Translations under genes and position numbers: made by a program
Assembly: GCF_003634315.1 (NCBI RefSeq)
Contig: NZ_RBXL01000001.1
Span: forward strand, 3,142,501 to 3,206,500
Reading direction: 5' to 3'
Source: Thiocapsa rosea
GTDB lineage: Bacteria; Pseudomonadota; Gammaproteobacteria; Chromatiales; Chromatiaceae
DNA: 64,000 bases
Part shown: piece by piece, positions 36,763 to 55,782 of the stretch
Layout: each line of letters begins with the position of its first letter
Numbering within the stretch: the stretch's first letter is position 1
Notes under the pieces: generated by a model
What the model saw: only the letters and a program-made list of their open reading frames with translations
The model's database searches: none
What the model was told of the DNA's origin: nothing

Positions 36763-36927
36763 CTACCGCGGGACCCCGCGATAGAGCCGATCCACCCAGT
36801 TCAGGAACCAGGGGGGACGCGCGAGTAGAACGTACGCGAGCAGCAGTGCTGCAAGCGGGACTGCGAAGGCCGCGGTGTCCACGACGACGATCAGCAGGGC
36901 CAGAACCAGACGGTGGGCGAGACGCAT
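36763..36927 (-). CDS. Very small membrane protein
   Basis: 54 residues, missed by length cut-offs. The ATG at 36927 has a GAGG ribosome-binding site about nine bases upstream. MRLAHRLVLALLIVVVDTA and the following AALLLAYVLLARPPWFLNWV form one long or two short hydrophobic helices, and the tail is DRLYRGVPR. Codon use looks normal. No function known. The surrounding 36570-36762 and 36928-37446 stretches show no other gene; 37147-37230 carries a degenerate repeat also seen near 56770. Confidence 0.5.
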   Translation of the reverse strand: MRLAHRLVLALLIVVVDTAAFAVPLAALLLAYVLLARPPWFLNWVDRLYRGVPR

Positions 36928-37446
36928 GACGACCTCGGGGTTGGCAATGTCCGCGACGCGGGCGGGATCCGTGTCACTCCTGCGCCGGGCGCGGTTATCG
37001 GGTTGTCGGTCGGTGATGGCATCCTTTGCGGCTCATGCTCGTCTGCACCACTGCACCACCGTGATTCTGTAGATTGGCGGGGCGCGGGCCGCCCGGCCGC
37101 CGGCACTCGCCATTGCGGCAAGGTCGATCGGGGCCGGAACGGCTGAGCTGATCGCGGGAGCGATTGGTCGAGGAGAGGAGCCGTCTCCCATCAACCGGAA
37201 GCGAGTGACTCATCGATCCTGATACCGGACAGTCGCTCGCGGTTCAACGCGTGACAAGTCGCGACCCGGATCTGGCATTCGCGCACGCGCGCGAGCGCCC
37301 GCTGTGGCGAGTTTAGCAGACGGCCGTTTCGATTCGTCTGGCCCTACGGGAACAGGAAAGACCCGACGCTGTCACCGACTCTGTCGCGCTCGAACCTCTT
37401 GCGCCTTGAGTGCCGAGAATGGTCTCGGGATTTCTCAAGCCCAGCC

Positions 37447-38044
37447 CTAGCTCGCCGGGTTAGCCGGTACTGGTCGATGCAACGCCTCCAGCGCGCTGGC
37501 GATGTCTTGACTCATGGTCGCCAGCGCCCGGCCGTGAGCGGCGGCGAGATCGTCGTATCCGGGCCCGTCCGCGGGTTTCCGCACGCGGGTGCGCCCGGTC
37601 GCGTTCCGTCCGTCCTCGGCCCGGCGCACCGTCCACACCGCCCCCGGGGTGGCGGCTTCGCCGAGGGCGGAGTCGAACTGCTGTACCTCGATAGTGACAC
37701 GGTAGACGGAATCCCCAGCCGTTCGATCGGGGAACAAGGTCACCCTCGGGGTGCCGAGTCGGGTCGCCAGGTTCTCCGCGACCGCCGCGGCAATGGCGTC
37801 CGCCAGGGGCGAGGCACAGCGGTTGTACTCCTCCAGGCGGACCCGGTTGGGGGCCTCGGCGATCACCATCTGCGGCCGATCCACCTGGGCCGGGATGGCG
37901 ACGGGTCCCACGACCACGGCGATGCTGGGGGCCCTGGGCGCCCGGTGGCAGGTTGGCGCCGAGGGTGTAGAAGCGGGCCGGCGTCGAGGCGCACCCGATC
38001 AGCGAGGCGCAGATGAGTGCTACACAAGCGAGGCGGTTAATCAT
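37447..38044 (-). pseudogene. pqiC: PqiC-type lipoprotein, frameshifted
   Basis: The 5' part (38044 to about 37935) encodes a lipoprotein signal with lipobox LIGC and CASTPARFYTLGANLPPG, typical of PqiC/ABC-type transport auxiliary lipoproteins. The remainder continues in another frame as SIAVVVGPVAIPAQVDRPQM to the end at 37447 (GRALATMSQDIASAL). The shift falls in a G/C-rich run near 37930-37945. A single base change would restore a ~198-residue protein, so this is either a recent mutation or a sequencing error. PqiC anchors the PqiB tube to the outer membrane. Its start overlaps the pqiB stop by four bases. Confidence 0.8.
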
Positions 38045-39711
38045 TGGTTCCCCTTCCCCTTACCGCGAATCAGCGCCTGCGGGTTGCGTTCCAGATAGTC
38101 GCTCAAGACCCGCACCGCCCGCGCCGCTCGGGTGATCTCGATCAGGGCGGCGCTGAGCTCTTGCTGGGCTGCGCTGTTTCTGCTCAGCAGACTCTCGTCG
38201 GTGTCCTCGAGGACCCGCTCCGCGACCACTACGGCGCCCCGCAGCGCGGCCATGGTCTTATTGAGCTCGGGCAGGGTTTCGGTGTCGGCGTTCGCGAGCA
38301 GCCGGTCCAGGTTCTCGAGCGAGCTGTCGAGCTTCCGGCCGATGGGTTCGAGCGGCAACTCCTCGACCTTGGCGAGGATGTCGTGCAGCTGGTCCAGGAT
38401 GCCGCTAGCCTTGGACTCGAGGTCCGCGAGCCCGCCGGGGGTCACCGGTAACTCCAGGGGATCCCGGGTCCAGTCCATGTCCGCCTTGGGCGCCTTGGGC
38501 TGGTAGTCCAGGGCGACATAGCGCTCGCCGGTGAGCAGATTGCCGGTCCGCAGCTGCACCCGCAGCCCCAGGTCTTCGATCTGGTGCCGAATCAGCTTGA
38601 TCCGCTCGTCCTCCCCGGCATTCACCAGCGCCCGGCCCAGCTCCTGTTGCCCCGGCGTGAGCTGGGTGACCAACCGCTCGGGGAAGAAGGTGATGAGCAG
38701 GCGGGGGCGGAAGGCGCGGGTCTCGGGATCCACCGCCAGGCCGATCTCGGCGACCTCGCCGGCCCTGATCCCTAGGAGCTTCACCGGCGCGCCGACCTGG
38801 AGCCCGTCGAGCGTGTCGGTGTAGATGACGTAGCGGCGCGCGACCGGATCGGGTTGCTTCAGGGCGTTCGTCTGGCTGCCGAAGAGCGTGAACACGCTGC
38901 CCTCCCCCGCCGGCCCGGTCGCCGTGACGAAGCTCGGCACGTCGAAGGCCACCCCGCCGGCGAGCAGCGACACCAAGGACTGGGTGCGCACATCGAATCC
39001 TTCCGCGCTGAGCGAGACATCGATGCCGCTCGCATCCCAGAACCGAGTCTCGGGCGTCACATATTGCTCGTACGGGGTAAAGACGAACACGCTGATGTCG
39101 ACCCCGGAGCCGTCCGCCGCCAGCGCGTAGGCGACCACTTCGCCCACCTTGAGACGGCGAAAGTACAGCGGGGAGCCGAGCCCGATGGAGCCCAGGTCGG
39201 ACGCCTTCAGGACGAAGCGCCGGCCGGGCTGATCGGTGATCGCCGGGGCGGCATCGAGCCCGACGAAGCGACGCTGCTCCTTGGTCGAGTTACCCGGCTG
39301 GAGCCCGATATAGTTGCCCGAGATCAGCGTGCCGAGCCCCGACACCCCGCTCAGGGTGACCCGCGGCTCCACGATCCAGAAGCGGGTGTCCTCCACCAGG
39401 AGACCGGCCGCGCTGCGATCCATCTTGACCGTCAGCTCGACCTTGGAGAATCGGTCGGCGAGCCGAACCGCAGTGACATGACCGATGTCCACGTCCTTGA
39501 ACTTGACCACGGTCTTGCCCGCTTGAACCCCCGCGGCCGTTTGGAACAGGAGGGTGATGGTGGGCCCCTCGGTCAGGATGCGCTGGACCGCGATCCCGAT
39601 GGCCACCGCGGCGGCGAGGAGCGGGATGATCCAGACGACCGAGGCCCGGCTTCGACGCGGCGGCTCGAGGCTGGCCAGGGGCAGATCGTCGGTCGTCGTC
39701 GGCTCAGACAT
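38041..39711 (-). CDS. pqiB: PqiB, MCE-domain intermembrane transport protein
   Basis: 556 residues: one N-terminal membrane helix (about 24-44), then three MCE/MlaD repeats (near 52-140, 165-230 and 290-370, each with a pattern such as VVKFKDVDIGHVTAVRL) and a long C-terminal helical region. PqiB forms a syringe-like hexamer across the periplasm for lipid movement between membranes. It overlaps the upstream pqiA gene by eight bases and the downstream pqiC by four, so the four genes form one tight operon. Confidence 0.92.
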   Translation of the reverse strand: MSEPTTTDDLPLASLEPPRRSRASVVWIIPLLAAAVAIGIAVQRILTEGPTITLLFQTAAGVQAGKTVVKFKDVDIGHVTAVRLADRFSKVELTVKMDRSAAGLLVEDTRFWIVEPRVTLSGVSGLGTLISGNYIGLQPGNSTKEQRRFVGLDAAPAITDQPGRRFVLKASDLGSIGLGSPLYFRRLKVGEVVAYALAADGSGVDISVFVFTPYEQYVTPETRFWDASGIDVSLSAEGFDVRTQSLVSLLAGGVAFDVPSFVTATGPAGEGSVFTLFGSQTNALKQPDPVARRYVIYTDTLDGLQVGAPVKLLGIRAGEVAEIGLAVDPETRAFRPRLLITFFPERLVTQLTPGQQELGRALVNAGEDERIKLIRHQIEDLGLRVQLRTGNLLTGERYVALDYQPKAPKADMDWTRDPLELPVTPGGLADLESKASGILDQLHDILAKVEELPLEPIGRKLDSSLENLDRLLANADTETLPELNKTMAALRGAVVVAERVLEDTDESLLSRNSAAQQELSAALIEITRAARAVRVLSDYLERNPQALIRGKGKGNQ

Positions 39712-40342
39712 GACAGGGCTCGATCTCGTTGCGATCCCAGAGAAGTCGGGGATCCAGGGAGTCCGCAGCGAGCATGGTCAGCACCACGACCGCGGCAAAG
39801 AACAAGACCCCAAGCCCGGGCTCGACGGACATGAGTGGATCGAGCTGGACCAAGGCAACCGTAAAGGTCGCGACGAAGACGTCCAGCATCGACCAGGGAC
39901 CGACCGCCCTGACGATCCGATGCAGCCGCATACGCTGTCGCTCCCCGCCGCGGATACCGCGCCGGATTGCGATCAGCAGCCAGCCCAGGGAGAGCAGCTT
40001 GCCCAGCGGGATCATGAAGCTCGCGACCAGCACGATCAGGGCCAGCGGCCAGGAGCCCGAGCCATAAAGGAACACGACACCGCCCAGGATGGTGTCGGGC
40101 TTGGAGGAGCCGAACGCGTCGGTGACCATCACGGGGAGAACATTGGCCGGGACGAAACAGACGGCGGCGGCGACCCCTAACGCCCAACTCCGCTGGATGG
40201 AATCCGGGTGTCGCCGGTGGAGCCGGGCGCCGCAGCGCGGGCAGAAACCCGCCTCGGCAGGAGCATCCATCCGCACCAAAAGTCCGCATGCACTGCATGA
40301 GATCAACCCTCGGCGAGCGGCGGTGAATAACGCCCCTGTCAT
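39704..40342 (-). CDS. pqiA: PqiA domain protein (second half)
   Basis: 212 residues: an N-terminal zinc-ribbon CSACGLL...CPRCGARL, then four hydrophobic helices. In E. coli a single PqiA chain carries two such units; here each unit is its own gene and this is the second. The start overlaps the stop of the first by four bases. The proteins are inner-membrane partners of the PqiB tube. ATG at 40342 is internal to a longer open frame whose upstream part is in the shadow of the neighbouring gene. Confidence 0.88.
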   Translation of the reverse strand: MTGALFTAARRGLISCSACGLLVRMDAPAEAGFCPRCGARLHRRHPDSIQRSWALGVAAAVCFVPANVLPVMVTDAFGSSKPDTILGGVVFLYGSGSWPLALIVLVASFMIPLGKLLSLGWLLIAIRRGIRGGERQRMRLHRIVRAVGPWSMLDVFVATFTVALVQLDPLMSVEPGLGVLFFAAVVVLTMLAADSLDPRLLWDRNEIEPCHV

Positions 40343-41022
40343 CGGGCAGTCGTTCCGCCGGTTCCGTTCGCAGCTGATGCGCCGGAACCGCGAGGCGTGT
40401 CCTGCGTGGACCAAGCGACGCGATCCCAAATGGTCCGCGGGTCGAAGCTGGTGGCCAGGCCAGCCAGCAACGCGAGCAAGGCACCTGTCGCGAAGAGCCC
40501 GACCCCGGGGTCCACGGTGGCCAGATCGGCGATCTTCACCAGCGCGACCAGGATGCCGAGCAGCATGACCTCGGGCAAAGACCAAGCGCGCGCGTGGCCC
40601 GCAAGACGCAAGAGGGCACCGGCCCACGAAGGCGCGGGCGGTCGGCGCACGGCCAGCAAGAGGGTGCAGACCAGGGTGAGATAGGCCGCCGGGGCGAGCG
40701 TCGTACAGATCAACACGAGCGTCGCCGTGATCGGCTGACCCTGGGTCCACATTTCCAGCGCACCGCCGATGATGGTGGTCTGCGCGGACCGTCCGACGGC
40801 CGAAAGACTCATCAGCGGGGTCGCCTGAGCGACCGCGAAGGTGATCGTCGCCGCAACGGCGAGGGCCAGAGGCCGCTCGATGGGATCCATCGGCGGAGCG
40901 GCCAGAACCTCGCCGCAGCGCGGGCAGCGCGCCCGGGCACCCGGCGGGACGGGCGGCAGCCTTTGAAGCAGGTCGCAACCCGGGCAGGCAACGATGTCGG
41001 CGGTCGGGTGTATTCGGGCCAT
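40339..41022 (-). CDS. pqiA: PqiA domain protein (first half)
   Basis: 227 residues: zinc-ribbon CPGCDLL...CPRCGEVL at about 13-39, then four hydrophobic helices (about 50-190) with MSLSAVGRSAQTTI in the loop, and a hydrophilic Gly/Thr-rich tail. First gene of the pqiAABC operon by position, with 38 bases to the upstream membrane-protein gene. Splitting PqiA into two chains occurs in other gammaproteobacteria. Confidence 0.88.
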   Translation of the reverse strand: MARIHPTADIVACPGCDLLQRLPPVPPGARARCPRCGEVLAAPPMDPIERPLALAVAATITFAVAQATPLMSLSAVGRSAQTTIIGGALEMWTQGQPITATLVLICTTLAPAAYLTLVCTLLLAVRRPPAPSWAGALLRLAGHARAWSLPEVMLLGILVALVKIADLATVDPGVGLFATGALLALLAGLATSFDPRTIWDRVAWSTQDTPRGSGASAANGTGGTTAR

Positions 41023-41060
41023 GGGTGGAGTGCTGCCCTATCGGATCTCAAACTCGGATC

Positions 41061-41573
41061 TCAATGAGGAGGGCTCGGCAAGGGCCCGAAGAACAGCTGC
41101 TTGGCCTTGTCCTTGCCGATCAGGCGCACCAGTTCGTGCAGGGTGCAGTACATCAGAATCAGCAGGAAAAGCAGGATCTGAATGGCCCAGAAATGCGGCC
41201 AGACGATCTCGGCGAGCAGTTTCTCGTTGCCTGCGACCACACCGCCTGCTTGCCGAGCGAAGTCGACGAGACGCTCCGCATAGTGCACCGCCGCGGCAAC
41301 CATCTGATACAGCAGCGTCTTCCAGAGCACGTTGTAGACCAGCGGCTTGTCGGGAAAGCGATTGATGATGGGCAGCAAGTCGGCGATCAGCACCGCCTTG
41401 CCGAGGATCAGGGCCGCAAGCGCGATCGAGACCGAGGTCGTGACCTTGATGCCGGTCCCCTCGAGCATCAAGACGCGGATCACCAGCACCAGGTGCAGGG
41501 CGACGAAGAAATAGAGCGTCGGCGGCAGGATCGCCAAGAGCTCTTCTTTAACCTTGGTGACAACGTTGTTCAT
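41061..41573 (-). CDS. Four-helix membrane protein of unknown function
   Basis: 170 residues. Hydrophobic helices at about 15-38, 45-68, 85-105 and 130-152. The first is preceded by a charged amphipathic stretch (VVTKVKEELLAILPP). Family not recognised. It sits between pqiA and the LysM-HdeA gene in the same direction. ATG at 41573 has no obvious strong ribosome-binding site (GGACACC), but the longer frame upstream is not protein-like. Confidence 0.7.
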   Translation of the reverse strand: MNNVVTKVKEELLAILPPTLYFFVALHLVLVIRVLMLEGTGIKVTTSVSIALAALILGKAVLIADLLPIINRFPDKPLVYNVLWKTLLYQMVAAAVHYAERLVDFARQAGGVVAGNEKLLAEIVWPHFWAIQILLFLLILMYCTLHELVRLIGKDKAKQLFFGPLPSPPH

Positions 41574-41668
41574 GGTGTCCGGGGGTCCTGCCGGGCGGGC
41601 GTCCCGGCGTTGTTCAGGTCGCCCGCTCCGCGCGTGCGGAGCGGGCATCAACCGGATCGACCTGGAGC

Positions 41669-42235
41669 TTAGTCGAGCTTCTTCATCTCCGCCTTGGCCT
41701 TCTGCCAGAAGGTCTCCTTGGGTGCCTTCTTGCATTCCTCGACGACGAAGGGGACGACCGTCTCGATGCCCTCTACATCCACGGCCTCCGCCTCGGGTTC
41801 GCCCTTCGCGTTGTAGGCGACTGCCCAAGACACCGCTTCGGGCTGGAAGCTCTCCTCCAGAACGAGAAACTCCTCGCAGGTCGTCTTGGAGTCGACCTTG
41901 TGGGACGACGCATGCGCGCCGGCGGATTTCCCCGCATGCGCACCGCCGGATGCAATCACCAGCTTCTCGCCGGTCTTGACCACGTCGGAGGTCAGCTTAT
42001 TCGCTGCCTTGAGTGCATCGACCGAGACCTTGAAACGCTGGCTGATCGCGAACAGGTCATCGCCCTCGACCACCCGATAGGTCGCGGTGGCGGCGTCGTA
42101 CTTGCCTTCGGCGTGGGTGCGCGGACCCGTGTCCGCCGCTTGGACGCTGCCGAACGCCAGACAGGCGGTCAACGCCAGGACCGAGCAGACCCCTTTCAGG
42201 GCGGATTGACGGGAGGGAGTTTGCTGCTGTTGCAT
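41669..42235 (-). CDS. LysM-HdeA fusion, exported
   Basis: 188 residues. Signal peptide (cleavage near VQA-AD, 31-33). A LysM domain (about 48-96) starts with the leader HAEGKYDAATATYRVVEGDD shared with the arylsulfatase at 47937. The C-terminal part (about 115-180) resembles HdeA/HdeB acid chaperones: TCEEFLVLEESFQPEAVSWA and VVPFVVEECKKAPKETFWQK, with Cys120 and Cys168 in the positions that form the family disulfide. A peptidoglycan-tethered HdeA-like chaperone is the natural inference. The ATG has AAGGTGAAC upstream. The fusion itself is unusual. Confidence 0.85.
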   Translation of the reverse strand: MQQQQTPSRQSALKGVCSVLALTACLAFGSVQAADTGPRTHAEGKYDAATATYRVVEGDDLFAISQRFKVSVDALKAANKLTSDVVKTGEKLVIASGGAHAGKSAGAHASSHKVDSKTTCEEFLVLEESFQPEAVSWAVAYNAKGEPEAEAVDVEGIETVVPFVVEECKKAPKETFWQKAKAEMKKLD

Positions 42236-42318: not shown

Positions 42319-42870
42319 TCAATAGATCACGGCACGGCGGAAGCTGCGGCGGCCCACGCCGGCGAAGGACACCGGGCTCAGGGGCATGCCGATGATGTCG
42401 ATGAAGAGCGACGCCGGTCCCGCTTCGGCGGGAAGCGTCCCCTCGAGCACCCGAACCTGGTAGCTCAGATCATCCCCGACGAGCTCCGGCTCCTGGAGCA
42501 CCAGCACCACGTCATCCATCTCCCGATTCTCGAGGAACGACAGGGTCGCGTTGGGAGGATCGAGCAGGAAGCTCTCCTCGCCTTCACTCCAGAAGGGAAC
42601 GAAGCGCGCGGTGGACATGTGGCCGGCGATGCGCTCCGGGCGGTCGGAGAACATCACCGTGGCTGGACTGATGCCTTTGAGGGTGAGGCGGCCGTCCGCA
42701 TGGACGATGGATCGAGCATTCTGAACGAACAGGAAATCCGCCTTATCGCCGGACGCATGGCCCGTTTTCTTGTGCTCGCTCGCACCCGTGTCGGCCATCG
42801 CAGACTTCGAGGCCAAGGCCAGGGGCGCCAGCGTGGCGGCTGCGGCAAGCAGGTGTCTTCTCGTGGTCAT
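42319..42870 (-). CDS. Exported protein of unknown function
   Basis: 183 residues. The N terminus TTRRHLLAAAATLAPLALAS is a twin-arginine-like or Sec signal. The mature part begins with a His-rich segment (SEHKKTGHASGDK) and contains FLFVQNARSIVHADGRLTLK and DRPERIAGHMSTARFVPFW. I do not recognise a named domain, although the latter segments look like a conserved family of exported proteins. The gene lies between the LysM-HdeA gene (84 bases downstream) and the beta-barrel gene. Confidence 0.75.
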   Translation of the reverse strand: MTTRRHLLAAAATLAPLALASKSAMADTGASEHKKTGHASGDKADFLFVQNARSIVHADGRLTLKGISPATVMFSDRPERIAGHMSTARFVPFWSEGEESFLLDPPNATLSFLENREMDDVVLVLQEPELVGDDLSYQVRVLEGTLPAEAGPASLFIDIIGMPLSPVSFAGVGRRSFRRAVIY

Positions 42871-42948: not shown

Positions 42949-43764
42949 CTACCAACGGAAGGTTGCCCCAAGCACGGGGCCGGTAAAACGGATGTCCGTA
43001 TTGTCCTCGTCGAACTCATAGGACAGGGAACGCAGGGCGAGCGTGATGTCGCCCCAATCGAAGCGATAACCGGCCCCCAGGGCGGCCTGCCAGGTCCAGT
43101 TCGACGAGCCGGTGCCCACATCCAGGTAGTAGGGCATGAACCAACGGGTGTCCCCGAACAGGACCTGGCCTTTGACCCCCAGGATGCCGTCCCACTGCTC
43201 CCTGTTCGAGGAGACCTTGCCGGTGCGATCGAGCCGGCCGTCGCTGCCCGCGAGTTGCCACGTCAACTCGGTATCCAGGCCGAGGTAGCGGAAACCGGCC
43301 AGCAGATCGACATTGCCCCAGTCGCCATGGGACAGGGTGTAGCCGCCGGCCAGCGTCCATACCGTCGCACTCAGACTCGTCTCGGCCTGCTGATTCAGGG
43401 AGATGGGCAAGGGTTCGCCGCGGGCTCCGCTGACGGGGCGAATCCGCGAGTCCTGGTTGCCCAGGTCCAGGTAGATGATGTCGGTGACGACCGACCAGGG
43501 CCCCTTGCGCGCTTCCCCGCTCAACATCAAGGCAAATTGCAGATTCGACAGATAGTCGTTGGGTCCGATCTCAGTGCTCAGGCCGCGGCTGGCATAATCC
43601 AAGTTGCCGTTGACATTCGGCAGCCAGAGATAGGGAGTGACGCTGAAGCGCCAATTCCCGTCAAAGGAGTCAACCTCGGCCACGGCGGGGATGGCGATCA
43701 GCGATCCGACGCACAGGGCCGTCGCCTGAGCCAGTGCCGAAAGGGCGGGTGTCGTCTGTATCAT
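42949..43764 (-). CDS. Outer-membrane beta-barrel protein
   Basis: 271 residues. Signal peptide (AIPAVAEV, cleavage near residue 29), then strands of alternating hydrophobic and polar residues: WRFSVTPYLWLPNVNGNLDY, SLSATVWTLAGGYTL, AALGAGYRFDWGDITLAL, and a terminal aromatic RW suited to BAM recognition. Family resembles uncharacterised outer-membrane porin-like or OmpW-like proteins. Gene spacing to the exported protein gene downstream is 79 bases, so it may start the next transcript. Confidence 0.8.
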   Translation of the reverse strand: MIQTTPALSALAQATALCVGSLIAIPAVAEVDSFDGNWRFSVTPYLWLPNVNGNLDYASRGLSTEIGPNDYLSNLQFALMLSGEARKGPWSVVTDIIYLDLGNQDSRIRPVSGARGEPLPISLNQQAETSLSATVWTLAGGYTLSHGDWGNVDLLAGFRYLGLDTELTWQLAGSDGRLDRTGKVSSNREQWDGILGVKGQVLFGDTRWFMPYYLDVGTGSSNWTWQAALGAGYRFDWGDITLALRSLSYEFDEDNTDIRFTGPVLGATFRW

Positions 43765-43986: not shown

Positions 43987-44817
43987 TTATTTCGGAAACA
44001 TCAATTGAATCTGAGCGCGGATCTGCCAGTCGGCGCCTTCGTCCGGCGTGACCGCGTTGTAGTAGGCCGAGAGCTGTGTATTCACCGGGAGCTTGCCCAG
44101 GTGGAAGATCTTACCCACGCCGCCGCCGACCGGAATGGTCCAGCGATCATCGCTGTCGGCCGTCCAATTGACCGTGAGGATCGGCGCTGACGTCAAATAG
44201 AACCCGCCCTTGAAGTTGTAATTGAGGAAGGGCTGGATCAGGCCGTTGTTGTAGTAGCCCCCGTGCTTATCGTTGGTCAGGGCCCAGATATTATTCACCA
44301 GTGCGCCATAGACCCAGGGACTGCCGTGATCCAGATGCAGCATCACGAACGAAGGTCCCAAGCCCCAGTTCCCGTTTCCCAACTCCTCTTCCGTGTTGGT
44401 GGGCAACTGCACGACCGGACCCGCGCCCCAGATCCATTTGCCGGGGTTGGCGGGCGACAGGAAGGCTGTGAATACGGTATCGCCGATGCCCGTCGTGCTC
44501 TCGATATCGGGTCCGAGGTCCGGCATCGAAATGACCGGGACGATGGTCCGGGTGATGATATTCCAGTCCTGATTGATCGAGATGGGGATCACCGGCTGGA
44601 TGTTGAGGATGTTCTGGGTGCCCCGCTCCGGCCCGAAGTTGAGATTGGTGTTGTTCTGGAACGGTAAGCTGATCAGGTTGCCGACCGGGTTTTGGGCGAG
44701 CTTGGCAAGCTCCTCGGCGCTCATCGTCGCCATGGCGGACCCGGATGCCAGCAGCGCGGTCCCGCAGGCACCGCCGATCAACCACTTTGCCCATCTTGCA
44801 TTGCTTCGATTCGTCAT
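43987..44817 (-). CDS. Outer-membrane beta-barrel transporter-like protein
   Basis: 276 residues. Signal peptide from the ATG at 44817, then SAEELAKLAQNPVGNLISLP and NNTNLNFGPERGTQNILNIQ, which are characteristic of the 'neuromedin U-like' outer-membrane protein family (name is historical). Continues in about ten amphipathic strands and ends QLMFPK. The family is thought to be a porin or channel of unknown substrate. It lies between another barrel gene and the small membrane-protein gene. Confidence 0.8.
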   Translation of the reverse strand: MTNRSNARWAKWLIGGACGTALLASGSAMATMSAEELAKLAQNPVGNLISLPFQNNTNLNFGPERGTQNILNIQPVIPISINQDWNIITRTIVPVISMPDLGPDIESTTGIGDTVFTAFLSPANPGKWIWGAGPVVQLPTNTEEELGNGNWGLGPSFVMLHLDHGSPWVYGALVNNIWALTNDKHGGYYNNGLIQPFLNYNFKGGFYLTSAPILTVNWTADSDDRWTIPVGGGVGKIFHLGKLPVNTQLSAYYNAVTPDEGADWQIRAQIQLMFPK

Positions 44818-44888: not shown

Positions 44889-45242
44889 TCAAGTGGCACC
44901 GGGGCGATCACGGAACCAAAGCAAAGCCAGCAAACCCGTCAGGATCGCGTGCAGGACGACCGCGGGCCATAGCAACGGGCCGGTCAAACCGTGCGCGACT
45001 CCGACATAGGCGAGATACAGCGCGACGGTCGCGCTGTAGATCAACATGCCGATCCGCGGAGGGCCCGGCCAGCAGGCTATCCCCAATGCGATCAGGGCGA
45101 TGCCCGCCACCCGGGCGACCGGTATGGCGATGCCGGTCGGTTCCTCGCCCAGCAACAACCGCCCGACGAGCGAGGGAACGATCAGCAACGCCAAGCCCGT
45201 TGCGACTTCCCCGACCGCGGCGAAGATCAGCGCTCCTTTCAT
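44889..45242 (-). CDS. Small four-helix membrane protein
   Basis: 117 residues with hydrophobic segments at about 4-26, 40-58, 63-83 and 88-110, rich in Ala, Leu and Gly. No charged catalytic motif. Family resembles the small DUF4345-like membrane proteins but I cannot confirm it. It starts seven bases after the stop of the arylsulfatase gene (45250), so it belongs to that transcript. Confidence 0.65.
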   Translation of the reverse strand: MKGALIFAAVGEVATGLALLIVPSLVGRLLLGEEPTGIAIPVARVAGIALIALGIACWPGPPRIGMLIYSATVALYLAYVGVAHGLTGPLLWPAVVLHAILTGLLALLWFRDRPGAT

Positions 45243-45249
45243 TCTTCGA

Positions 45250-47936: not shown

Positions 47937-50693
47937 CTATTCCCTGCCTGCCTCCACCTTCGCCTCACCCTCCTTCAGCGTCTTGATATCCTCGGGCGAG
48001 AGCTCGGGCTGATCGACCCTAATGGTCAGCTTTTCGAGCTTGGCGGTCAGCGGGAACGGCGGCTTGTAGTCGGCGTCGTTCACGCCGGTGAGCGTGTCGG
48101 AGCCGATGTCGAAGCTCTCGTCCCACTGCAATATGATCGGCAATGTCTTCTCCATGCGCTTGGTATCGACGACCTTGCCGTCGACCTTGAGCGTGCCGGT
48201 GCCGGGCCGACCGAGTCCGCTGAAGCTGTTGTACACGAGTGTGCCGACGCCGAGGCCCTCGTACTGGAAGTCGAACTCCACCGTATGCCGTCCCGGCGAC
48301 AGTACCTCGGTTCCCTCCCACTTCAGACGTTCGAGATCGATCAGATTCCACAGGAACACGGGCTTGCCCTTGAGCAGGTAGAAGCCGTAACCGGCGAAGC
48401 GCCCGCCCGAGGTCAGCATCATCCCTTCGGCGCCGCCTTCCGGCACGTCGATGTCGGCAGTGATGGTGTAGGAGGTGTTCAGCAACAACGGCGAGTCACC
48501 CTGCGGCAGGCCGACCATCGGGCGCGTATAGACAAACTCGGTGCGCCCGGCGGTAATGTTTGGGCGCGGTGCGATGACACGCGCTGCCACCGTTCCGTCG
48601 AGCGGGAGGACCTGGTGCTTCTTGGCCTCGGCAAGGAACTGTGCGCGCATCGCCTTGACCTTCTCCGGGTGCTTGGCGGCGATGTCGTCAGACTGCGTGA
48701 AGTCCTTGCTCAGATCGTAAAGCTGGAACACCTGGTTGTTCAGCGGGTCGGCGTTGGCCGCGCCGAAGGCCTCCCAGGGTGCGCGATCGACCTTGGTGCT
48801 GAGCAGCCAGCCATCCTCGTACAGGGCCCACTGACCCATCATCTCGAAGTACTGGGTCTTGTGGCGCGACGGGGCCTTGGCGTTCTCCGCGTCGAAGGTG
48901 TACAGGAAGCTGGTGCCCTCGATCGGCTTCTGCTTGATGCCGTCAACCAGCTCGGGCGCGTGAATACCCGCCGCGTCGAGGATAGTCGGCACCACGTCGA
49001 TCACATGCACGAACTGCTCGCGCAGGGCGCCCTTGTCCTTGATGCGAGCCGGCCAGGACACGACCATGTTCTGGTTGATGCCGCCCAGGCGCGAGGCGTT
49101 CTGTTTGAACCAGTCGAACGGCGTGTTGAAGGCCCAGGACCAGCCGGCGGACATGTGGTTGTAGGTCTGCTCGGTGCCCCAGACGTCGTACCACTTCATC
49201 TGCACGTCCACCGGCACGGTGACGCCGTTGAAGAAGGCCACTTCGTTCGGAGTCCCGATCGGCCCCCCCTCGGCGCTTGTGCCGTTGTCGCCGTTGATGT
49301 AGATGACCAGCGTGTTGTCGAGTTTGCCCAGATCCTCGAAGGCCTGGATCACACGGCCGATCTCGTGATCGGTGTAGGCGGCGTAGGCGGCAAAGACCTC
49401 GACCTGGCGGATGAATAGCTTCTTCTCCTCCGCGGTGAGCTGATCCCACGGCTTCAGGACGTCACTGGGCCAGGGCGTGAGCTTCGCATCCTGGGGGATG
49501 ACGCCGAGCCGCTTCTGGTTCTCGAAGATGCGCTCGCGCAGCTTCTCGTAGCCGTCGTCGAAGAGATGCATGGCGCTGACTTTATCCACCCATTCCCGGG
49601 TCGGGTGGTGCGGGGCGTGCGTGGCGCCTGGCGCGTATTTGATGAAGATCGGTTTGCTCGGATCGGTCTGGTGCATCCGCGTCGCCCAGTCGATGGCCTC
49701 GTCGGCCATCCCGGTGATCAGGTTCCAGGTGCCCGGCTCCTTGCCCTGGAAGGGGAAGATCTGGGTGGTGTTGCGGAACAGGTTGGGCTCCCACTGGTTG
49801 GCGTCGCCGCCGACGAAGCCGTAGAAGTACTCGAAGCCCATGCCGGTGGGCCACTGGGTGAAGGGACCCGTTTGGCTGGCCTGGAAGGCGGGCGTGTTGT
49901 GGTCCTTGCCGAACCAAGAGGTGTTGTAGCCGTTGTCGAGCAGGATACGGCCAATGGTGGCGTTGTCAGCGCCGATGATGCTGTTGTAGCCGGGGAAACC
50001 GGTCGACTGCTCGGCAATCACGCCGAAACCGACGGAGTGGTGGTTGCGCCCGGTGATCAGGGCGGCGCGCGTCGGCGAGCACAGCGACGTGGAGAACATC
50101 CGGTTGTAGCGCAGGCCCTCGTTGGCGATGCGGTCCATCGACGGTGTCGGGATGACGCCGCCGAAGGTGCTCGGCACGCCGAAGCCGGCGTCGTCGGTGA
50201 TGATGAGCAGCACGTTCGGCGCGCCCTTGGGCGGCACGACGCTCGGCGGCCACCAGGGCGTCGATTGCAGTGCGCCGTCCTTGATGACGCCGCCGAAAGC
50301 CGGTTGGGGCGGCGGCAGTTGCTGGCCACTGATGGTGGTGGTGGCGCTCGGCGAGCCCGGGACGCCGGTGACCTGTGTGGCGCCTGCCGCGGCGCCGTCG
50401 GGGGTGCCGGCGGCCACCAGGAGCCTCTGACCGATATCGATGGTGTCTGAGCCGAGCCGGTTGGCCGCCTTCAGCTCCGCCACCGTGGTGCCGAAGCGCT
50501 CGGCGATGGCGGCCAGATCGTCACCCGCGACCACGGCATAGGTGGCGGTGGCGGCATCGTAGTGACCGTCAGCATGGTGGCGCGGCCCGGCGTCGCCCGC
50601 CTGGGCGCCGCCGCCCAGGGCGAGGAAGAGCACTAAAGCTGAGGCTGCGAGCCTTGCCCTCCACTGGTTCGGCCCAAGTCCCGGGATCTTCAT
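47937..50693 (-). CDS. LysM-arylsulfatase fusion, exported
   Basis: 918 residues. Signal peptide (GGGAQAG), then a LysM domain (about 48-96) with the leader HADGHYDAATATYAVVAGDD, nearly the same as in the LysM-HdeA protein. The sulfatase domain follows, with TDDAGFG, LCSPTR (Cys205), GRNHHS and GKDHNTP, and a C-terminal LamG-like region. The linker GVPGSPSATTTISGQQLPPP occurs also in the paralogue at 45250, so the pair looks like a duplication in which one copy gained a LysM module. LysM should hold it on peptidoglycan. The 47749-47936 gap between the two genes shows no other gene. Confidence 0.92.
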   Translation of the reverse strand: MKIPGLGPNQWRARLAASALVLFLALGGGAQAGDAGPRHHADGHYDAATATYAVVAGDDLAAIAERFGTTVAELKAANRLGSDTIDIGQRLLVAAGTPDGAAAGATQVTGVPGSPSATTTISGQQLPPPQPAFGGVIKDGALQSTPWWPPSVVPPKGAPNVLLIITDDAGFGVPSTFGGVIPTPSMDRIANEGLRYNRMFSTSLCSPTRAALITGRNHHSVGFGVIAEQSTGFPGYNSIIGADNATIGRILLDNGYNTSWFGKDHNTPAFQASQTGPFTQWPTGMGFEYFYGFVGGDANQWEPNLFRNTTQIFPFQGKEPGTWNLITGMADEAIDWATRMHQTDPSKPIFIKYAPGATHAPHHPTREWVDKVSAMHLFDDGYEKLRERIFENQKRLGVIPQDAKLTPWPSDVLKPWDQLTAEEKKLFIRQVEVFAAYAAYTDHEIGRVIQAFEDLGKLDNTLVIYINGDNGTSAEGGPIGTPNEVAFFNGVTVPVDVQMKWYDVWGTEQTYNHMSAGWSWAFNTPFDWFKQNASRLGGINQNMVVSWPARIKDKGALREQFVHVIDVVPTILDAAGIHAPELVDGIKQKPIEGTSFLYTFDAENAKAPSRHKTQYFEMMGQWALYEDGWLLSTKVDRAPWEAFGAANADPLNNQVFQLYDLSKDFTQSDDIAAKHPEKVKAMRAQFLAEAKKHQVLPLDGTVAARVIAPRPNITAGRTEFVYTRPMVGLPQGDSPLLLNTSYTITADIDVPEGGAEGMMLTSGGRFAGYGFYLLKGKPVFLWNLIDLERLKWEGTEVLSPGRHTVEFDFQYEGLGVGTLVYNSFSGLGRPGTGTLKVDGKVVDTKRMEKTLPIILQWDESFDIGSDTLTGVNDADYKPPFPLTAKLEKLTIRVDQPELSPEDIKTLKEGEAKVEAGRE

Positions 50694-50734: not shown

Positions 50735-50810
50735 CTGTGGGTCGGGCTTCCGCCCCACAGCGGCGCCTCGGGCAATCCCGGAGGTCGAAGTCGGGCTGAA
50801 GCCCGACCGA
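50735..50810. repeat. Pair of REP-like hairpins
   Basis: GTCGGGCTGAAGCCCGAC (50790-50807) is a perfect 7-base-pair hairpin around a GAA-like loop. About 40 bases before it a related hairpin (CTGTGG...CCACAG around GGCTTCCGCC, 50735-50760) lies in the opposite sense. Such paired GTCGGGCT hairpins are REP-type elements. The rest of 50694-51419 shows no supportable gene. Confidence 0.6.
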
Positions 50811-51419: not shown

Positions 51420-51671
51420 CTACTTCTTCTCATCCATGGCTTTCAGGTCTTTTTCGGCCTTTTCATGGGCCGCATCGAGCTTCTTCTCTTCCTTCGCATC
51501 CATCGTTTTGAGATCGGTTTCCGCCTTCGCGTGCGCGGGGTCGAGTGTCAGGTCCGATTCAGCCTTCTCGTGCGCCTTTTCGAGATCTTTCGCACTCTCG
51601 GCAGCGACAGCGGTCGACAGGATCAAGGCCAAGGCCGAAGCAGCAACGGTGATCGTCTCTTTCATTTTCAT
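51420..51671 (-). CDS. Small exported Lys/Glu-rich repeat protein
   Basis: 83 residues: signal peptide (cleavage near TAVAAES, 20-24), then three imperfect copies of the unit AHxKAExDL (AHEKAESDL, AHAKAETDL, AHEKAEKDL) separated by acidic linkers. Helical and strongly charged. Function unknown; similar proteins are not named. The start ATG (51671) is followed two codons later by another ATG. It lies between the LysM-sulfatase and double-LysM genes. Confidence 0.65.
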   Translation of the reverse strand: MKMKETITVAASALALILSTAVAAESAKDLEKAHEKAESDLTLDPAHAKAETDLKTMDAKEEKKLDAAHEKAEKDLKAMDEKK

Positions 51672-51855
51672 CTCAGATAGCTCCGATTGGTTTCTTATTG
51701 AAATCAAACGTTGTTTAGCGCGTTTTCGGGTCTCCTGTGTTCGCGAGTTAAGGATGCGAATGCTCAAGCCACCCAGCGTTTCCCGCCGGGAAGGATGCCC
51801 GGCTATTTCCAGGCGCGGAAGCACCGAAAGAAGCGAGCCGGTGCCGGCCGGGCCG

Positions 51856-52242
51856 CTAGGGGATCACAAGTGTCGCGCCGGCCGTGATCCTGCTGTTCTC
51901 CAGGCCGTTCGTCGACTCGATCGCTTCCACCGTCGTGCCGAAGCGCCGGCTGATCTCCAGCAGGTCGTCCCCTTTGGCGATCGTATAGACGCCGGTCTCC
52001 GGGTCGAAATAGCCCGTCGCGTGCTTTGGCGGGATGTAGATGACGGTTCCAACAGCGATCTCCTCGGTCTCCAGACCATTGGTCACCAGGATGTCTTCAA
52101 CCGAGACGTCATAGGTACCGGCAATCGTCTGGATGTCCTCGCCCTCGGCGATGGTGTAAGCGACAACACTGTCGGTTGCAGCTCCGGCCGAGCCTAGAAC
52201 GAACAGCAGAGCGAAGGGGATGATGCGTGTTTTTGTGTTCAT
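51856..52242 (-). CDS. Exported double-LysM protein
   Basis: 128 residues. Signal peptide (GSAGAATD), then LysM 1 (VVAYTIAEGEDIQTIAGTYD) and LysM 2 (ATGYFDPETGVYTIAKGDD, then LLEISRRFGTTVEAIESTNGL). The second copy carries the same leader type (xGYFDPETGVY) seen in the LysM-HdeA and LysM-sulfatase proteins. Probably binds peptidoglycan; no enzymatic domain. ATG at 52242 has GGAGGG upstream. Confidence 0.85.
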   Translation of the reverse strand: MNTKTRIIPFALLFVLGSAGAATDSVVAYTIAEGEDIQTIAGTYDVSVEDILVTNGLETEEIAVGTVIYIPPKHATGYFDPETGVYTIAKGDDLLEISRRFGTTVEAIESTNGLENSRITAGATLVIP

Positions 52243-52419
52243 GCTGCCCTCCAAATTGATTGCAACGGTGGTTGACAGTGAAGCTTGCGGGACCGCTTCT
52301 GAACGGCCCATCGCGACGCCGTCCGCGTGGACGACGGAGCGGGCATTGCGCCCCCAGGGGCTGGTCCTGTCGACATGGGGATTCGGGTGGCCCGCGGCGC
52401 TGCTGACCCGGAAGCGTGC

Positions 52420-52800
52420 TCAGGGGTCGCTTGGCACGTAGACCCAGACCTTGGGGACGTCCATGCCCTCGATCGCGAAGGCTGTGCTGTTGAACACCTG
52501 ACCCAGATTGGCGGTCTGTCCGGCCGGATAGGTGCCCCAGGTGACCTCGTTGCCGGTCACGACAACGCCGCCGCTGCCGGCCGGGATGTTGAACATGACC
52601 TGACACGGATTGCTATCGCACTGGGCCGTATCGCCCGGCGAGACCGTGACCTGCATAAAACCACTGACCTCCGCGGCCCGACCGATCGGGACGGCCAGCA
52701 GCAGCGCGGCGGGCAGGCACAGCGCGACCGTCCGGCGGCACCGGGTGCCGCGATGGGTCGGGACCAAGGACTCGGTCCAGCTCTGTCGTTTGAGCGCCAT
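52420..52800 (-). CDS. Exported protein of unknown function
   Basis: 126 residues with a long positive N-region, signal core (ALCLPAALLLAVPIG) and mature part beginning AAEVSGFMQVTV. Two Cys in QCDSNPCQV could form a disulfide. No family recognised. The ATG is preceded by GGAGGAATCAAA, a strong ribosome-binding site. It lies in the same direction as the LysM genes, downstream of the two-component system. Confidence 0.65.
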   Translation of the reverse strand: MALKRQSWTESLVPTHRGTRCRRTVALCLPAALLLAVPIGRAAEVSGFMQVTVSPGDTAQCDSNPCQVMFNIPAGSGGVVVTGNEVTWGTYPAGQTANLGQVFNSTAFAIEGMDVPKVWVYVPSDP

Positions 52801-52916
52801 TTTGATTCCTCCGCTGTCGTGTTGGTTGGCTGTTGGTAGGGACCGTCGTTGTGCCTTCAAGCAACTGAACCAACGGACGACCAGCGGGCAGTGATCAAAA
52901 GAGTCCAACAGTTGGG

Positions 52917-52997
52917 TCAGCGCCCACGCGAACCGTTGAAAGCAGGTTCTCCAGCGACGGCGAATGCGAATGCGCTCAGAGCGGTCAGGCGTGTCAT
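52917..52997 (-). CDS. Possible micro-ORF with strong ribosome-binding site
   Basis: 26-codon frame MTRLTALSAFAFAVAGEPAF followed by six residues and a stop, preceded by GAGGAGAATTGACGG. It looks like the beginning of an exported protein whose body is missing. Either a truncated gene or a leader peptide ahead of the 52420 gene. Nothing else is recognised in 52801-53222. Confidence 0.3.
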   Translation of the reverse strand: MTRLTALSAFAFAVAGEPAFNGSRGR

Positions 52998-53222
52998 CCG
53001 TCAATTCTCCTCGGATCAATCCGGAAAGGTTTTTCCGAAAGCGAGCTGGAGTGATGAGCGATTGGGGACAAATCGCCGGTTCCGGTCAACTCCACACTAA
53101 CAGCGCCGACTCCGCGCGGGTATCGGCCCTAAGGACATCGACTCTGCCCCTTGGGGCAATCTCGTGTCGATCCAGAGCCGCTCCGGCGTAGCCGTGGCCG
53201 AGTAGGCGCGGGTCCGATCCAG

Positions 53223-53858
53223 CTAGTCTTCGGAAGAGTGGTGAGAGGAGAGGCCCTTCAAGCGCTCGGCCAGGGCGCCCAGCTCGGCCGCCGAGCCGGC
53301 ACCGAGCTTGCGCATCATCTGCGCACGCTGCAGCTTGACGGTGCGCTCGGCGATACCCAGGCCTTCGGCGATCTGTTTGTTGAGCTTGCCGGCAACCACG
53401 CCCTCGAAGACCTCGCGCTCGCGCGGAGTGAGGGCGGCGAAGCGCGAACGCAGGTCAGCCGCCTCCCGACCGGCGGCACGCAGCGCCCGGTCGCGAGCCA
53501 AGGCCCGGCCGATCGCGTCCAGCAACGCGTCCCGCTCGATCGGCTTGGACAGAAAGTCCACCGCGCCCGCCTTCATCGCCCGCACGCTGGAGGCCACGTC
53601 GCCGTAGCCGGTCAGGAACACGACCGGCAGGCCGCTGCCCTGGCGCTGCAGGGCCGCCTGTAGCTCAAGCCCGGAAGGCCCCGGCAGGTGCATGTCCAGC
53701 AGTAGGCAACCTGGTTGGTCGGGCAGCGGTTGCAGTAGAAACTCACCGGTGGAGCCATAGCCGCGGGTCTCGAAACCGGCCGCGCCGAGCAGGCGCAGCA
53801 GGGCGACGCGCTGGGACTCGTCGTCGTCGACGACGTGGATCAGAGCGACATCACTCAT
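53223..53858 (-). CDS. FixJ-type response regulator
   Basis: 211 residues: receiver (about 1-125) with DDDE at 11-14, phospho-acceptor Asp55 (LLLDMHLPG) and Lys in SKP, and a LuxR-type HTH (about 140-205) with LTPREREVFEGVVAGKLNKQIAEGLG. Overlaps the stop of the histidine kinase gene by eight bases, so it is the cognate partner. As the first regulator upstream of the LysM/sulfatase genes, all in one direction, it is a candidate for their control (inference only). Confidence 0.9.
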   Translation of the reverse strand: MSDVALIHVVDDDESQRVALLRLLGAAGFETRGYGSTGEFLLQPLPDQPGCLLLDMHLPGPSGLELQAALQRQGSGLPVVFLTGYGDVASSVRAMKAGAVDFLSKPIERDALLDAIGRALARDRALRAAGREAADLRSRFAALTPREREVFEGVVAGKLNKQIAEGLGIAERTVKLQRAQMMRKLGAGSAAELGALAERLKGLSSHHSSED

Positions 53859-55782
53859 GCCGATGCCTCGTGTTTATCGATACCTTCCGGTTTCGCTTCG
53901 TGCGGCCGAGCGCGGGCAACTCAACCTGGAAACGGGCGCCGCCTGCGGCCACGTTCTCGGCCCAGATTCGCCCATGGTGTGCATTCACCAGCGTCCGGGC
54001 GATGGCCAGCCCGAGCCCCATCCCGTCCTGCTTGGTGCTGAAGAACGACTCGAACACCTGCTCGAGGTGCTCCGGAGCAATGCCGGTGCCGTGATCGGTG
54101 ACGCTGATCCGAACGTGTCTCGCGCGTTCCTCGATGGCCAGGACAGCGATGCGACGGTCTGTCGCGACATTGGCCATGGCATCCATGGCGTTGATCGTCA
54201 GGATGATCATGATCTGTTGGACCTGGACGCGATCGCCCAGGATCATCGCCCGCGGCACCGCCGGGCTCAGGGACAGCGTCACCGCTCGGCGCCGGGCCTC
54301 GACGCGCAGCAAGGCAAAGACCTCCCCGGCCACCTCGACCAGATCCAGTGGTTTCGACTCCGTGCGTTGTTTGCCGAGCAGCGCCCTCAACCGTCGGATC
54401 ACTTCGCTCGCGCGCAGATCGTCCCGGCGGATATCGGCGAGAATGGCGCGCAGCTCCCGATGTCGAGCCGGGTCGGGCCAAGACTCTGCTTCCGTGTCCG
54501 TCGCAGCTCCCGGACCAGCTCCGGCACCGAGGATCAACTCGGCGGCGTCGGTATTGCTGAGGATGGCCCCCAGGGGCTGGTTGATCTCATGCGCGATCGA
54601 GCCGGTGAGCTCTCCGGCCACCGATACCCTGGATGCATGGATCAGCGCGAACCGCTGTTTCTGTTCGGCCTGTTCGGCGACTCGCCGCCGCCGGCGCTCG
54701 ACCAGCAGCCAGACGATCAGGCCGCTCTGCAGCAACATGACGACGGTGAGGAGGATCGCCTCGCGACGGTGCGCCTCGAGAAAGCCCGGCTCCCGAAAAT
54801 GAATGACGGCGTGATCCGGAATCTGATCTTGATCGAGCCGCCAGCGGCGGACCTGATTCCAGTCGAGGTTCAAGGTCGTCGGCAACACCGCGGGCAGCTC
54901 AAGCGCCTCGGCGGCCACGCCGTCGAGCAGCGCGTTGACGGCCCGACCGACCTCGCGTCCCATAGCGACGTAGCTCGGACAATACCCACCGACGATACCG
55001 GTGCCCATGGTCGTATCCGAAGGCGCGAAGACCGGCACGCTGGCGGACTGCGCCATCGCGGCCCCGGCCGCCAGGGGGATGAAGGACTCACCGTTGCCGT
55101 CGCGGAAGTAGCCGGGCGTAAAGACGATGCTGTCCCGATCCAGCGCGCGCAGTCGCTCGAGCAGCTCATCCGTCGGCAGGCCGGCAAGAAACTCGGGCGT
55201 CACCCGTGCCGCGAAGCGCGGCACTTCCGCGCGCAACCGCGCCTCCCACGCACGATCCCAGGGCGCTGCGCCGGTGACCAACACCAGGCGCTTGGCGCGC
55301 GGGCTCAGGCGTAAGGCCAGATCGATGGTGCGCATGGCATCGAACTCGATCGGGATCCCCACCACATCGGCCGGAAACGGGGCGAGGGACGCCAGCACGC
55401 TCGGCCTGATTCCCAGGTGGATGATCGGCGCGTGCGGAAACAGCCCCTCGCGATGGGCCAGCAGGAAGGTCAGCGCGTCTTCCCCGCCGGCGACGATCAC
55501 CTGCGGTGACCGGCGCGAATACTTCTCGCTCAGAAAACGTGTCACCGAACGGACATAGGACTCGCCGGAGAAGCGCGCAGAGTCGAGAAACTCGACGCTC
55601 ACCTCGGTGCCGGCAGCGATGGTCTCGTCCAACCCCTGCTCGACCTTGATGGTGGCAGGCAGCGCTCGCTGATAGCCAAAGAGGACGAGGACGTGAGGTT
55701 CCTCCGCTGCCGTTGCCGGGCTTGCGCTCGGCAGCAGCAGCGCGCAACCGAGCAGGCCGAGCAGCGCTCGTGCACACCGCAA
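53851..55782 (-). CDS. Sensor histidine kinase with ABC-substrate-binding-like periplasmic domain
   Basis: About 643 residues from a TTG at 55782, which places the signal peptide (ALLGLLGCALLLPSASPATA) at the N terminus. A periplasmic domain (about 30-330) has the layout of ABC-type substrate-binding proteins of the COG2984 kind (VLVLFGYQRALPATIKVEQG, IHLGIRPS). A membrane helix follows (about 350-372), then HisKA with SIAHEINQPLGAI and the ATPase domain with NAMDAMANVA and GMGLGLAIARTLV. The frame stays open to 56169 and an ATG exists at 56007, but those extra codons look noncoding. It senses a small periplasmic ligand and signals to the overlapping regulator. Confidence 0.85.
   Translation of the reverse strand: MRCARALLGLLGCALLLPSASPATAAEEPHVLVLFGYQRALPATIKVEQGLDETIAAGTEVSVEFLDSARFSGESYVRSVTRFLSEKYSRRSPQVIVAGGEDALTFLLAHREGLFPHAPIIHLGIRPSVLASLAPFPADVVGIPIEFDAMRTIDLALRLSPRAKRLVLVTGAAPWDRAWEARLRAEVPRFAARVTPEFLAGLPTDELLERLRALDRDSIVFTPGYFRDGNGESFIPLAAGAAMAQSASVPVFAPSDTTMGTGIVGGYCPSYVAMGREVGRAVNALLDGVAAEALELPAVLPTTLNLDWNQVRRWRLDQDQIPDHAVIHFREPGFLEAHRREAILLTVVMLLQSGLIVWLLVERRRRRVAEQAEQKQRFALIHASRVSVAGELTGSIAHEINQPLGAILSNTDAAELILGAGAGPGAATDTEAESWPDPARHRELRAILADIRRDDLRASEVIRRLRALLGKQRTESKPLDLVEVAGEVFALLRVEARRRAVTLSLSPAVPRAMILGDRVQVQQIMIILTINAMDAMANVATDRRIAVLAIEERARHVRISVTDHGTGIAPEHLEQVFESFFSTKQDGMGLGLAIARTLVNAHHGRIWAENVAAGGARFQVELPALGRTKRNRKVSINTRHRHE

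Follow-up and report, generated by a model that had tools for sequence, protein, structure and literature searches.

Here, we report a block of 17 convincing genes, all on the minus strand, in the genome of Thiocapsa rosea (RefSeq assembly GCF_003634315.1, contig NZ_RBXL01000001.1, positions 3,142,501 to 3,206,500; this whole stretch of 64,000 nucleotides is the window). The block (positions 37447 to 56169, from gene calls and domain searches of the window) combines two sulfatases, LysM proteins, a predicted barrel, a two-component pair, and a Pqi system, and is almost certainly a linked island. Sequence comparison established its anatomy, its linkage, and a leader common to several products. 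Several exported proteins from one recurring neighbourhood, otherwise unrelated, share a front end of signal peptide and LysM leader, and the Pqi genes fall in a separate paralogue clade with a split PqiA that is tied to this neighbourhood, whereas the other Pqi copies examined in these genomes are not.

The strongest evidence that the combined locus is real was the contrast in linkage between the two Pqi copies of the same genomes. PqiB relatives in 146 genomes of the family formed two sets, an island kind in 12 genomes (51 to 68% identical in the other eleven) and other full-length copies (29 to 44%). In 9/12 genomes, island-type PqiB had a marker (any leader, sulfatase, or Hyp42 gene) on the same contig at a distance of at most 11 kb; in G035 and G070, markers were on other contigs, and G014 had none. 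Out of the 24 other copies, taken from marker-bearing genomes plus G139 and G014 (many assemblies fragmented), 0 lay within 15 kb of a marker, with six sharing a contig with one (nearest, 55 kb) and 18 on marker-free contigs. The probability computed for this contrast counts every genome, the window's included, as an independent case; excluding the window and its genus, linkage was 5/8. Two short PqiB fragments were kept outside this count (G142:C193 and G133:C237); the second (11439-11723), with 61% identity over 95 residues, belonged to the island kind, and its contig carries leader genes. On a small PqiB tree with long branches, the island copies formed one side of a starred branch.

The two sets also differed in PqiA, which was encoded by two genes in 8/8 readable island-type loci (those with the PqiA end within the fetched stretch) and by one gene in 5/5 other loci. 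A second Pqi elsewhere in the T. rosea genome has PqiA in one piece. In Escherichia coli, PqiA is one two-domain protein. In the window, PqiA1 and PqiA2 had one PF04403 match each (143.3 and 178.7 bits; cut-off, 23.8), and PqiC matched PF03886 (125.3 bits). The PqiABC set named in the initial annotation stood as to the PqiA and PqiB domains, and this copy does belong to the locus, but PqiA is two genes, and the frame of PqiC is broken. PqiC is whole in Thiocapsa sp. KS1 (L007) and T. roseopersicina (L008), with open reading frames (ORFs) of 192 and 191 residues. A Candidatus Binatia metagenome-assembled genome (MAG) carries PqiA-PqiA-PqiB-PqiC (L072:8721-12200) about 5 kb downstream of a sulfatase relative; its PqiB fell on the island side of the tree, although long branches make the placement unsure. 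The link between Pqi and sulfatase may therefore reach beyond Pseudomonadota.

The leader comprised 64 residues after the signal peptide, with a LysM domain and a conserved front (consensus ADxGPRHHAxGQYDAATATYxVVxGDDLxAIAERF...). As initially noticed, it is common to several proteins: it was 59% identical between the LysM-sulfatase and LysM-HdeA and 40% in the third LysM protein (LysM2), and PF01476 (LysM) matched all three (43.3, 44.4, and 68.6 bits; cut-off, 20.9). A profile built from 12 leaders and run on the 146 genomes (threshold, 55 bits) gave 42 matches (lowest, 57 bits) in 17 of them. Generic LysM similarity was rejected as the source of the shared leader, with one match of 51 bits following the 42 and LysM-only matches below 49 bits. 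The gap was less clean in a sample of the class, in which, besides strong leaders, two further hits scored 56 and 54 bits (the former covering the LysM half only). Strong leaders (at least 85 bits) were present in 3/369 genomes of the class, namely, the T. rosea genome and two from other families, in both of which a sulfatase and the DUF1254 protein next to it bear the leader.

Out of 40 classified leaders (including the two fusions of the window), partners were DUF1254/1214 in 11, the large sulfatase in 9, HdeA in 6, tandem LysM in 5, a family of about 900 residues in 4, a second sulfatase family in 2, an HAD phosphatase-like protein in 2, and DUF2092 in 1, which adds five further partner kinds in relatives to those first noted. 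The other two matches were the tandem LysM protein of the window and a match with an internal stop in G015 (L171); labels of L156, L157:11802, the two second-type sulfatases, and the four proteins of about 900 residues were set by reading. One DUF1254/1214 partner matches the solved VPA0735 structure, which bears no functional name. Two Competibacteraceae proteins of about 1,030 residues (L024:10823-13921 and L034:15793-18879) read as the leader followed by two DUF1254-like parts. Members of the family of about 900 residues lie at L163:3419-6187, L166:10570-13365, L173:3871-6534, and L174:9308-12145, and LysM was the sole Pfam domain in the two scanned (L163 and L173). The second sulfatase family with a leader (L162:9173-11170 and L169:8847-10787) lies beside an HAD phosphatase-like gene, with kinase and regulator genes upstream, and its active-site stretch is CTxGR in place of CSPTR.

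Leader genes were clustered. Another core family lay within 10 kb of 36/39 leader genes scored outside the window (one gene scored twice), a test that is partly circular for sulfatase-holding loci, as core families were drawn from sulfatase neighbourhoods; the 19-kb neighbourhoods of the six other LysM genes of the T. rosea genome showed a core family in 0/6. On a quick sulfatase tree (LG+G4, 95 rows, leader excluded; L157, L164, L176, L177, and L178 left out as repeats), whose starred branches are less trustworthy than those of a careful tree, the leader was present on 19 rows, and the starred branches force at least eight changes. These changes suggest that the leader has been repeatedly gained or lost on the sulfatase, which fits a portable tether.

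A LysM-sulfatase scan of genome contigs gave 472 confirmed relatives, and the neighbourhoods of the best 80 of 472 (often short contigs, with genes here and in the leader loci called by a home-made gene caller) were studied. They came from Pseudomonadota, Planctomycetota, Cyanobacteriota, Thermodesulfobacteriota, and others, with many MAGs. Companions among the 80 loci were the Bar43 family (26), AraC-like regulators (26), DUF1254/1214 (23), DUF2092 (17), and Hyp42 (14), followed by a small exported family (10), Bar44 (8), OmpA (8), genes resembling the formylglycine-generating enzyme (FGE) (5), and maturase-like radical-SAM genes (3); DUF1254/1214, DUF2092, and OmpA were named from family representatives, and AraC-like, FGE-like, and maturase-like by reading. 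The frequency of DUF1254/1214 and DUF2092 proteins beside sulfatases goes beyond the initial annotation. DUF2092 is described as related to LolA (PMC4520260). The best sulfatase loci and the best match to the block order were Thiocapsa records, with L007 and L008 sharing the order LysM-sulfatase, Bar43, Hyp42, LysM-HdeA, Mem41, PqiA, PqiA, PqiB, PqiC, and Chg51; in L007, a DUF1254 gene separates LysM-sulfatase from Bar43, and kinase, regulator, second sulfatase, and membrane protein genes lie upstream. The combined locus suspected initially does recur; as to scattering of its neighbours in relatives, which had been set beforehand as counting against it, linkage held in most genomes with these genes but not in all. 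The initial interpretation was thus supported in part, the sulfated lipid or polysaccharide that it envisaged being a putative substrate.

Within the window, the block runs from the sensor kinase to PqiC (Table 1). Intervals of 425 bp downstream of the regulator and 726 bp upstream of the LysM-sulfatase point to two or three transcription units; between the second sulfatase and PqiC, gaps were at most 222 bp, with several genes overlapping. A promoter and terminator scan was uninformative, with 1 promoter-like signal versus 2.2 expected and 14 terminator-like signals versus 12.0 expected. The one-directional envelope island had been placed at 36763 to 55782; its direction held, and its extent was corrected. 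The earlier lower boundary is explained by the end of an ORF (36763-36927, minus strand; 54 residues, with a single long stretch that is hydrophobic), which lies downstream of PqiC, between it and an AraC-type regulator gene (35924-36569, plus strand; Cupin_6 tail and helix-turn-helix). The latter is apparently split over two frames (by reading), and, as this break and that in PqiC are only 1.3 kb apart, they may be indel errors in the assembly. Nearly all products had been called exported or membrane bound, and a signal peptide, lipobox, or membrane segment was found in 16/17 (translations and a hydropathy script), the response regulator being the sole exception; for Hyp42 and Bar44, the script gave no segment and Tat/Sec-like N termini were read by eye, and the PqiC lipobox was read from the translation.

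Table 1. Features of the island in order of transcription (window coordinates; percentages are identities)
Feature	Coordinates	Strand	Evidence or remark
Sensor histidine kinase	53851..56169	-	HATPase_c; start codon uncertain; 52% / 60% identical segments in L007 / L013
FixJ-type response regulator	53223..53858	-	Receiver and GerE; 64% / 77% in L007 / L013
Hyp52, small exported protein	52420..52800	-	No Pfam match; recurs by sulfatase/Bar43 in some relatives
LysM2, exported tandem LysM protein	51856..52242	-	Repeat 2 versus leader profile, 60 bits
Chg51, small exported charged protein with repeats	51420..51671	-	Translation and comparison with L007, L008
LysM-sulfatase, 918 residues	47937..50693	-	Signal peptide, leader, type I sulfatase domain, CSPTR
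Leader of LysM-sulfatase, 64 residues including LysM	50406..50597 (genome 3192906-3193097)	-	Leader profile
Second large sulfatase, 832 residues	45250..47748	-	Leaderless; CSPTR; weak C-terminal LamG-like match (22.2 bits; cut-off, 27.6)
DUF44b, 117-residue four-segment membrane protein	44889..45242	-	Label coined here; accompanies this sulfatase subtype in L007, L036, L041, L056
Bar44, exported protein	43987..44817	-	Barrel-like from sequence reading only; no Pfam match
Bar43, predicted outer-membrane beta barrel	42949..43764	-	Predicted structure and Foldseek
Hyp42, exported beta protein	42319..42870	-	Tat-like N terminus by reading; no PDB match
LysM-HdeA fusion (leader and HdeA domain)	41669..42235	-	Pfam
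Leader of LysM-HdeA, 64 residues including LysM	41945..42136 (genome 3184445-3184636)	-	Leader profile
Mem41, three-segment membrane protein	41061..41573	-	90% / 92% in L007 / L008
PqiA1, first half of split PqiA	40339..41022	-	PF04403
PqiA2, second half of split PqiA	39704..40342	-	PF04403
PqiB, island-type MCE protein	38041..39711	-	Three MCE stretches, PF02470
PqiC lipoprotein	37447..38044	-	PF03886; frame broken once near 37,910, two overlapping ORFs

The calls of two sulfatases and an HdeA-like protein were borne out. PF00884 matched the sulfatases with 175 and 174.7 bits, out of six matches in the T. rosea genome, and both contain CSPTR; in the second, the active-site residues (those for metal and formylglycine, Lys/His, and Asp-Asn) aligned with their counterparts in the Pseudomonas arylsulfatase. 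The HdeA domain (PF06411, 67 bits; cut-off, 22) is fused to LysM and scored 58.7 bits against HdeA of PDB 1bg8, with both cysteines aligned. A small two-Cys family (F11; 8/80 loci) suspected of being HdeA-like had no Pfam match. Mem41 is a neighbour of LysM-HdeA in G023 (L161) and, in G133 (L154), lies close to leader genes. Chg51, upstream of the sulfatase in the window, follows PqiC in L007 (21404-21682) and L008 (19386-19664).

Out of the barrels called initially, Bar43 is predicted to be an outer-membrane barrel resembling small ones (predicted local distance difference test, 83.3; best Foldseek E, 3.7e-8; template modelling scores, 0.58/0.61; next, Pla/OmpT barrels), while Bar44 was barrel-like by reading only. 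Among the best-scoring Bar43 homologues, 17/19 lay within 15 kb of an island marker, and Bar43 was at most two genes from island-type Pqi in G028, G070, G076, and G142. Hyp42 had a confident beta core, yet a fold search gave no PDB match at an E value of ≤0.001 (best, 2.6e-3); its holders were 14/146 genomes, every one among the 27 with a sulfatase or leader. In the supposedly ligand-sensing two-component system, the kinase core and a receiver/GerE regulator were matched (HisKA was below the cut-off, 16.6 versus 26.9 bits), but the proposed binding-protein-type sensor was not confirmed: the N-terminal region had no Pfam match outside the kinase core, and its best PDB sequence match (E, 0.017) was not a binding protein by name. 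A PHROGs search with four proteins was uninformative.

We propose that the island could encode a periplasmic layer for processing, anchored on peptidoglycan and working together with an MCE conduit of its own, an account that we hold tentatively, at a little less than even confidence. To judge from the families, the leader would export the fused proteins and hold them on peptidoglycan, such that outer-membrane barrels, wall-tethered hydrolases and chaperone, and a trans-periplasmic Pqi conduit would make up one fixed processing line. Its substrate would be amphiphilic and probably sulfate-ester bearing, with the head group trimmed next to the wall by the sulfatase and partner enzymes and the lipid-like substrate or product moved between membranes by Pqi. 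LysM-HdeA may protect the layer, perhaps against acid from ester hydrolysis, and the kinase/regulator pair would turn the system on. A bolder version, in which the LysM leader serves as a tag that sorts unrelated enzymes, recruited once they acquire the same wall-binding front end, into a hitherto undescribed kind of peptidoglycan-bound multi-enzyme layer with its own split-PqiA MCE conduit, we consider rather unlikely as a whole.

A number of observations weigh against this proposal. Three of the four leader proteins of about 900 residues (L166, L173, and L174) had no core neighbour, and the block of the window has no DUF1254 or DUF2092 gene. On the tree, the window sulfatase groups with leaderless kin; the nearest (Lamprocystis, 92%) is without the leader, and no sulfatase of the named loci outside Chromatiaceae and Competibacteraceae bears one, so that the sulfatase family does not need it. 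Mean leader identity was higher for the same partner in other genomes (0.66) than for other partners in the same genome (0.56), a pattern by which recent copying of one leader around a genome was rejected. Pqi genes were clustered in only 5/80 sulfatase loci (L007, L008, L059, L072, and L077, with a PqiA hit at the edge of L009), most sulfatase relatives being without adjacent Pqi, though many loci are short contigs, and in the window the frame shift leaves no single intact PqiC ORF. Bar43 homologues were found in 45/146 genomes (E ≤ 1e-15), including genomes without a sulfatase. Five other genomes of the genus were sampled: the order is preserved in G071 and G102, the parts are dispersed over several places in G023, leader-HdeA with Hyp42 but no sulfatase (at an E value of ≤1e-100) is present in G123, and both sulfatase and leader are absent from G139. 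Finally, the FGE that the initial annotation proposed to locate was not recognised in the T. rosea genome: the TIGR03942 maturase had no match at an E value of ≤0.001, and PF03781 (FGE family) gave nine hits, among the six fetched loci of which five had the motif region without the Cys pair and one had no such motif. The FGE-like neighbours of related loci possess the pair that those five are without. The best genome match of a true-FGE-like query (105 bits) was at one of the PF03781 loci.

The main competing explanation is envelope maintenance, with the hydrolases and Pqi acting on the cell's own surface (sulfated exopolysaccharide, lipopolysaccharide, or membrane lipid) under stress and with no import. 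The HdeA fusion, the kinase/regulator pair, and the HdeA, OmpA-like, EipA-like, and SYLF-like neighbours in relatives would suit a stress regulon (OmpA family in 8/80 loci; EipA-like family, 19 bits, below the cut-off of 30.8; Ysc84-like family, 27.6 bits; cut-off, 25.1), and Pqi is described as an envelope system (PMC10897342). Several hydrolase families together with barrels resemble substrate processing more, however, as do the AraC-like regulators at 26/80 loci. AraC-like regulators are common by catabolic genes. We regard envelope maintenance as unlikely on balance, though a serious contender.

The maturase result would also suit large "sulfatases" with other chemistry (for example, hydrolysis of phosphate or phosphonate esters, or catalysis by a Cys left without modification), leaving the island real and the sulfated-substrate theme wrong: no FGE-type Cys pair was present in the six of nine FGE-family loci looked at, and HAD phosphatase-like partners bear the same leader. 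The T. rosea genome, rated 100% complete, pairs six PF00884 matches with no recognised formylglycine maturase. Against this stand CSPTR in both enzymes, the aligned active-site residues of the second, and the FGE-like and maturase-like genes (5/80 and 3/80 related loci, by reading). Other bacteria have one more sulfatase maturation route, of unknown nature, which also speaks against other chemistry. We judge other chemistry improbable. TIGR03942 was over the cut-off in 1/19 genomes scanned. A maturase-like radical-SAM gene (L172, G028:C1:1742028-1743116; 137 bits, below the TIGR03942 cut-off) is located some 1 kb away from a gene with the leader.

Two intact-looking type I sulfatases could instead free sulfate from organic sulfate esters under sulfur limitation, with the other genes hitch-hiking. 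The companions, however, recur with the sulfatase in several phyla, no sulfate transporter was among the Pfam matches of the block, and purple sulfur bacteria produce their own sulfate from sulfide; plain scavenging is a still poorer prospect. Mere coincidence in a large genome, for which one could cite how common envelope genes are, the two wide gaps (the genes need not be one operon), and the two same-genus genomes without a sulfatase, has a very low probability and was rejected on the Pqi and leader linkage tests, with order kept in two genomes.

Every named Pfam domain in the island is already known. The association, the portable leader, and the island-specific Pqi with split PqiA were not found in the literature searched (mostly open access). 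No publication pairing DUF1254 or PqiB with sulfatase was found (by word-start matching, which does not cover "arylsulfatase"), nor one on DUF1254, DUF1214, and structure together. Titles and abstract openings on DUF1254, VPA0735, DUF1214, and DUF2092 mentioned no sulfatase neighbourhood. Among the records listed, HdeA and LysM domain gave incidental co-mentions only; LysM, arylsulfatase, and peptidoglycan gave nothing relevant; arylsulfatase, LysM, and Chromatiaceae gave no publication; and paraquat-inducible protein and arylsulfatase gave only E. coli amine oxidase work.

PqiABC is described as a putative phospholipid transport system (PMC10897342). Pqi cargo is uncertain, and no role has been shown for DUF1254/1214, DUF2092, or several exported families; finding these families in a recurring neighbourhood with sulfatases and a distinct Pqi paralogue offers a testable route to MCE cargo and family functions. 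If the proposed layer is real, a wall-binding leader common to unrelated enzymes would be a simple way to build a periplasmic assembly line.

Compared with known systems, the island would resemble a processing locus that includes a conduit for lipids. It shares with E. coli PqiABC and other MCE systems the PqiA domains, a PqiB with three MCE stretches, and a PqiC-type lipoprotein (broken here) in an overlapping gene run, but departs from them in its PqiA in two genes, its separate PqiB clade, and its tie to the sulfatase/LysM neighbourhood. Like type I sulfatases (PDB 1hdh/4cxk and 7all), its enzymes have the sulfatase domain, CSPTR, and, in the second, aligned active-site residues; unlike them, they span 832 to 918 residues, the C-terminal part being long, a LysM leader precedes one of them, and no maturase was recognised in the genome. 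The HdeA acid chaperone is matched in PF06411 and both cysteines, but the island copy sits behind a LysM wall-binding leader. Sulfated-polysaccharide degradation clusters likewise bring sulfatases, outer-membrane proteins, and regulators together; the island differs in having a Pqi conduit and wall tethers and no glycoside hydrolase or SusCD-like pair among its Pfam matches (several block proteins had no match at all).

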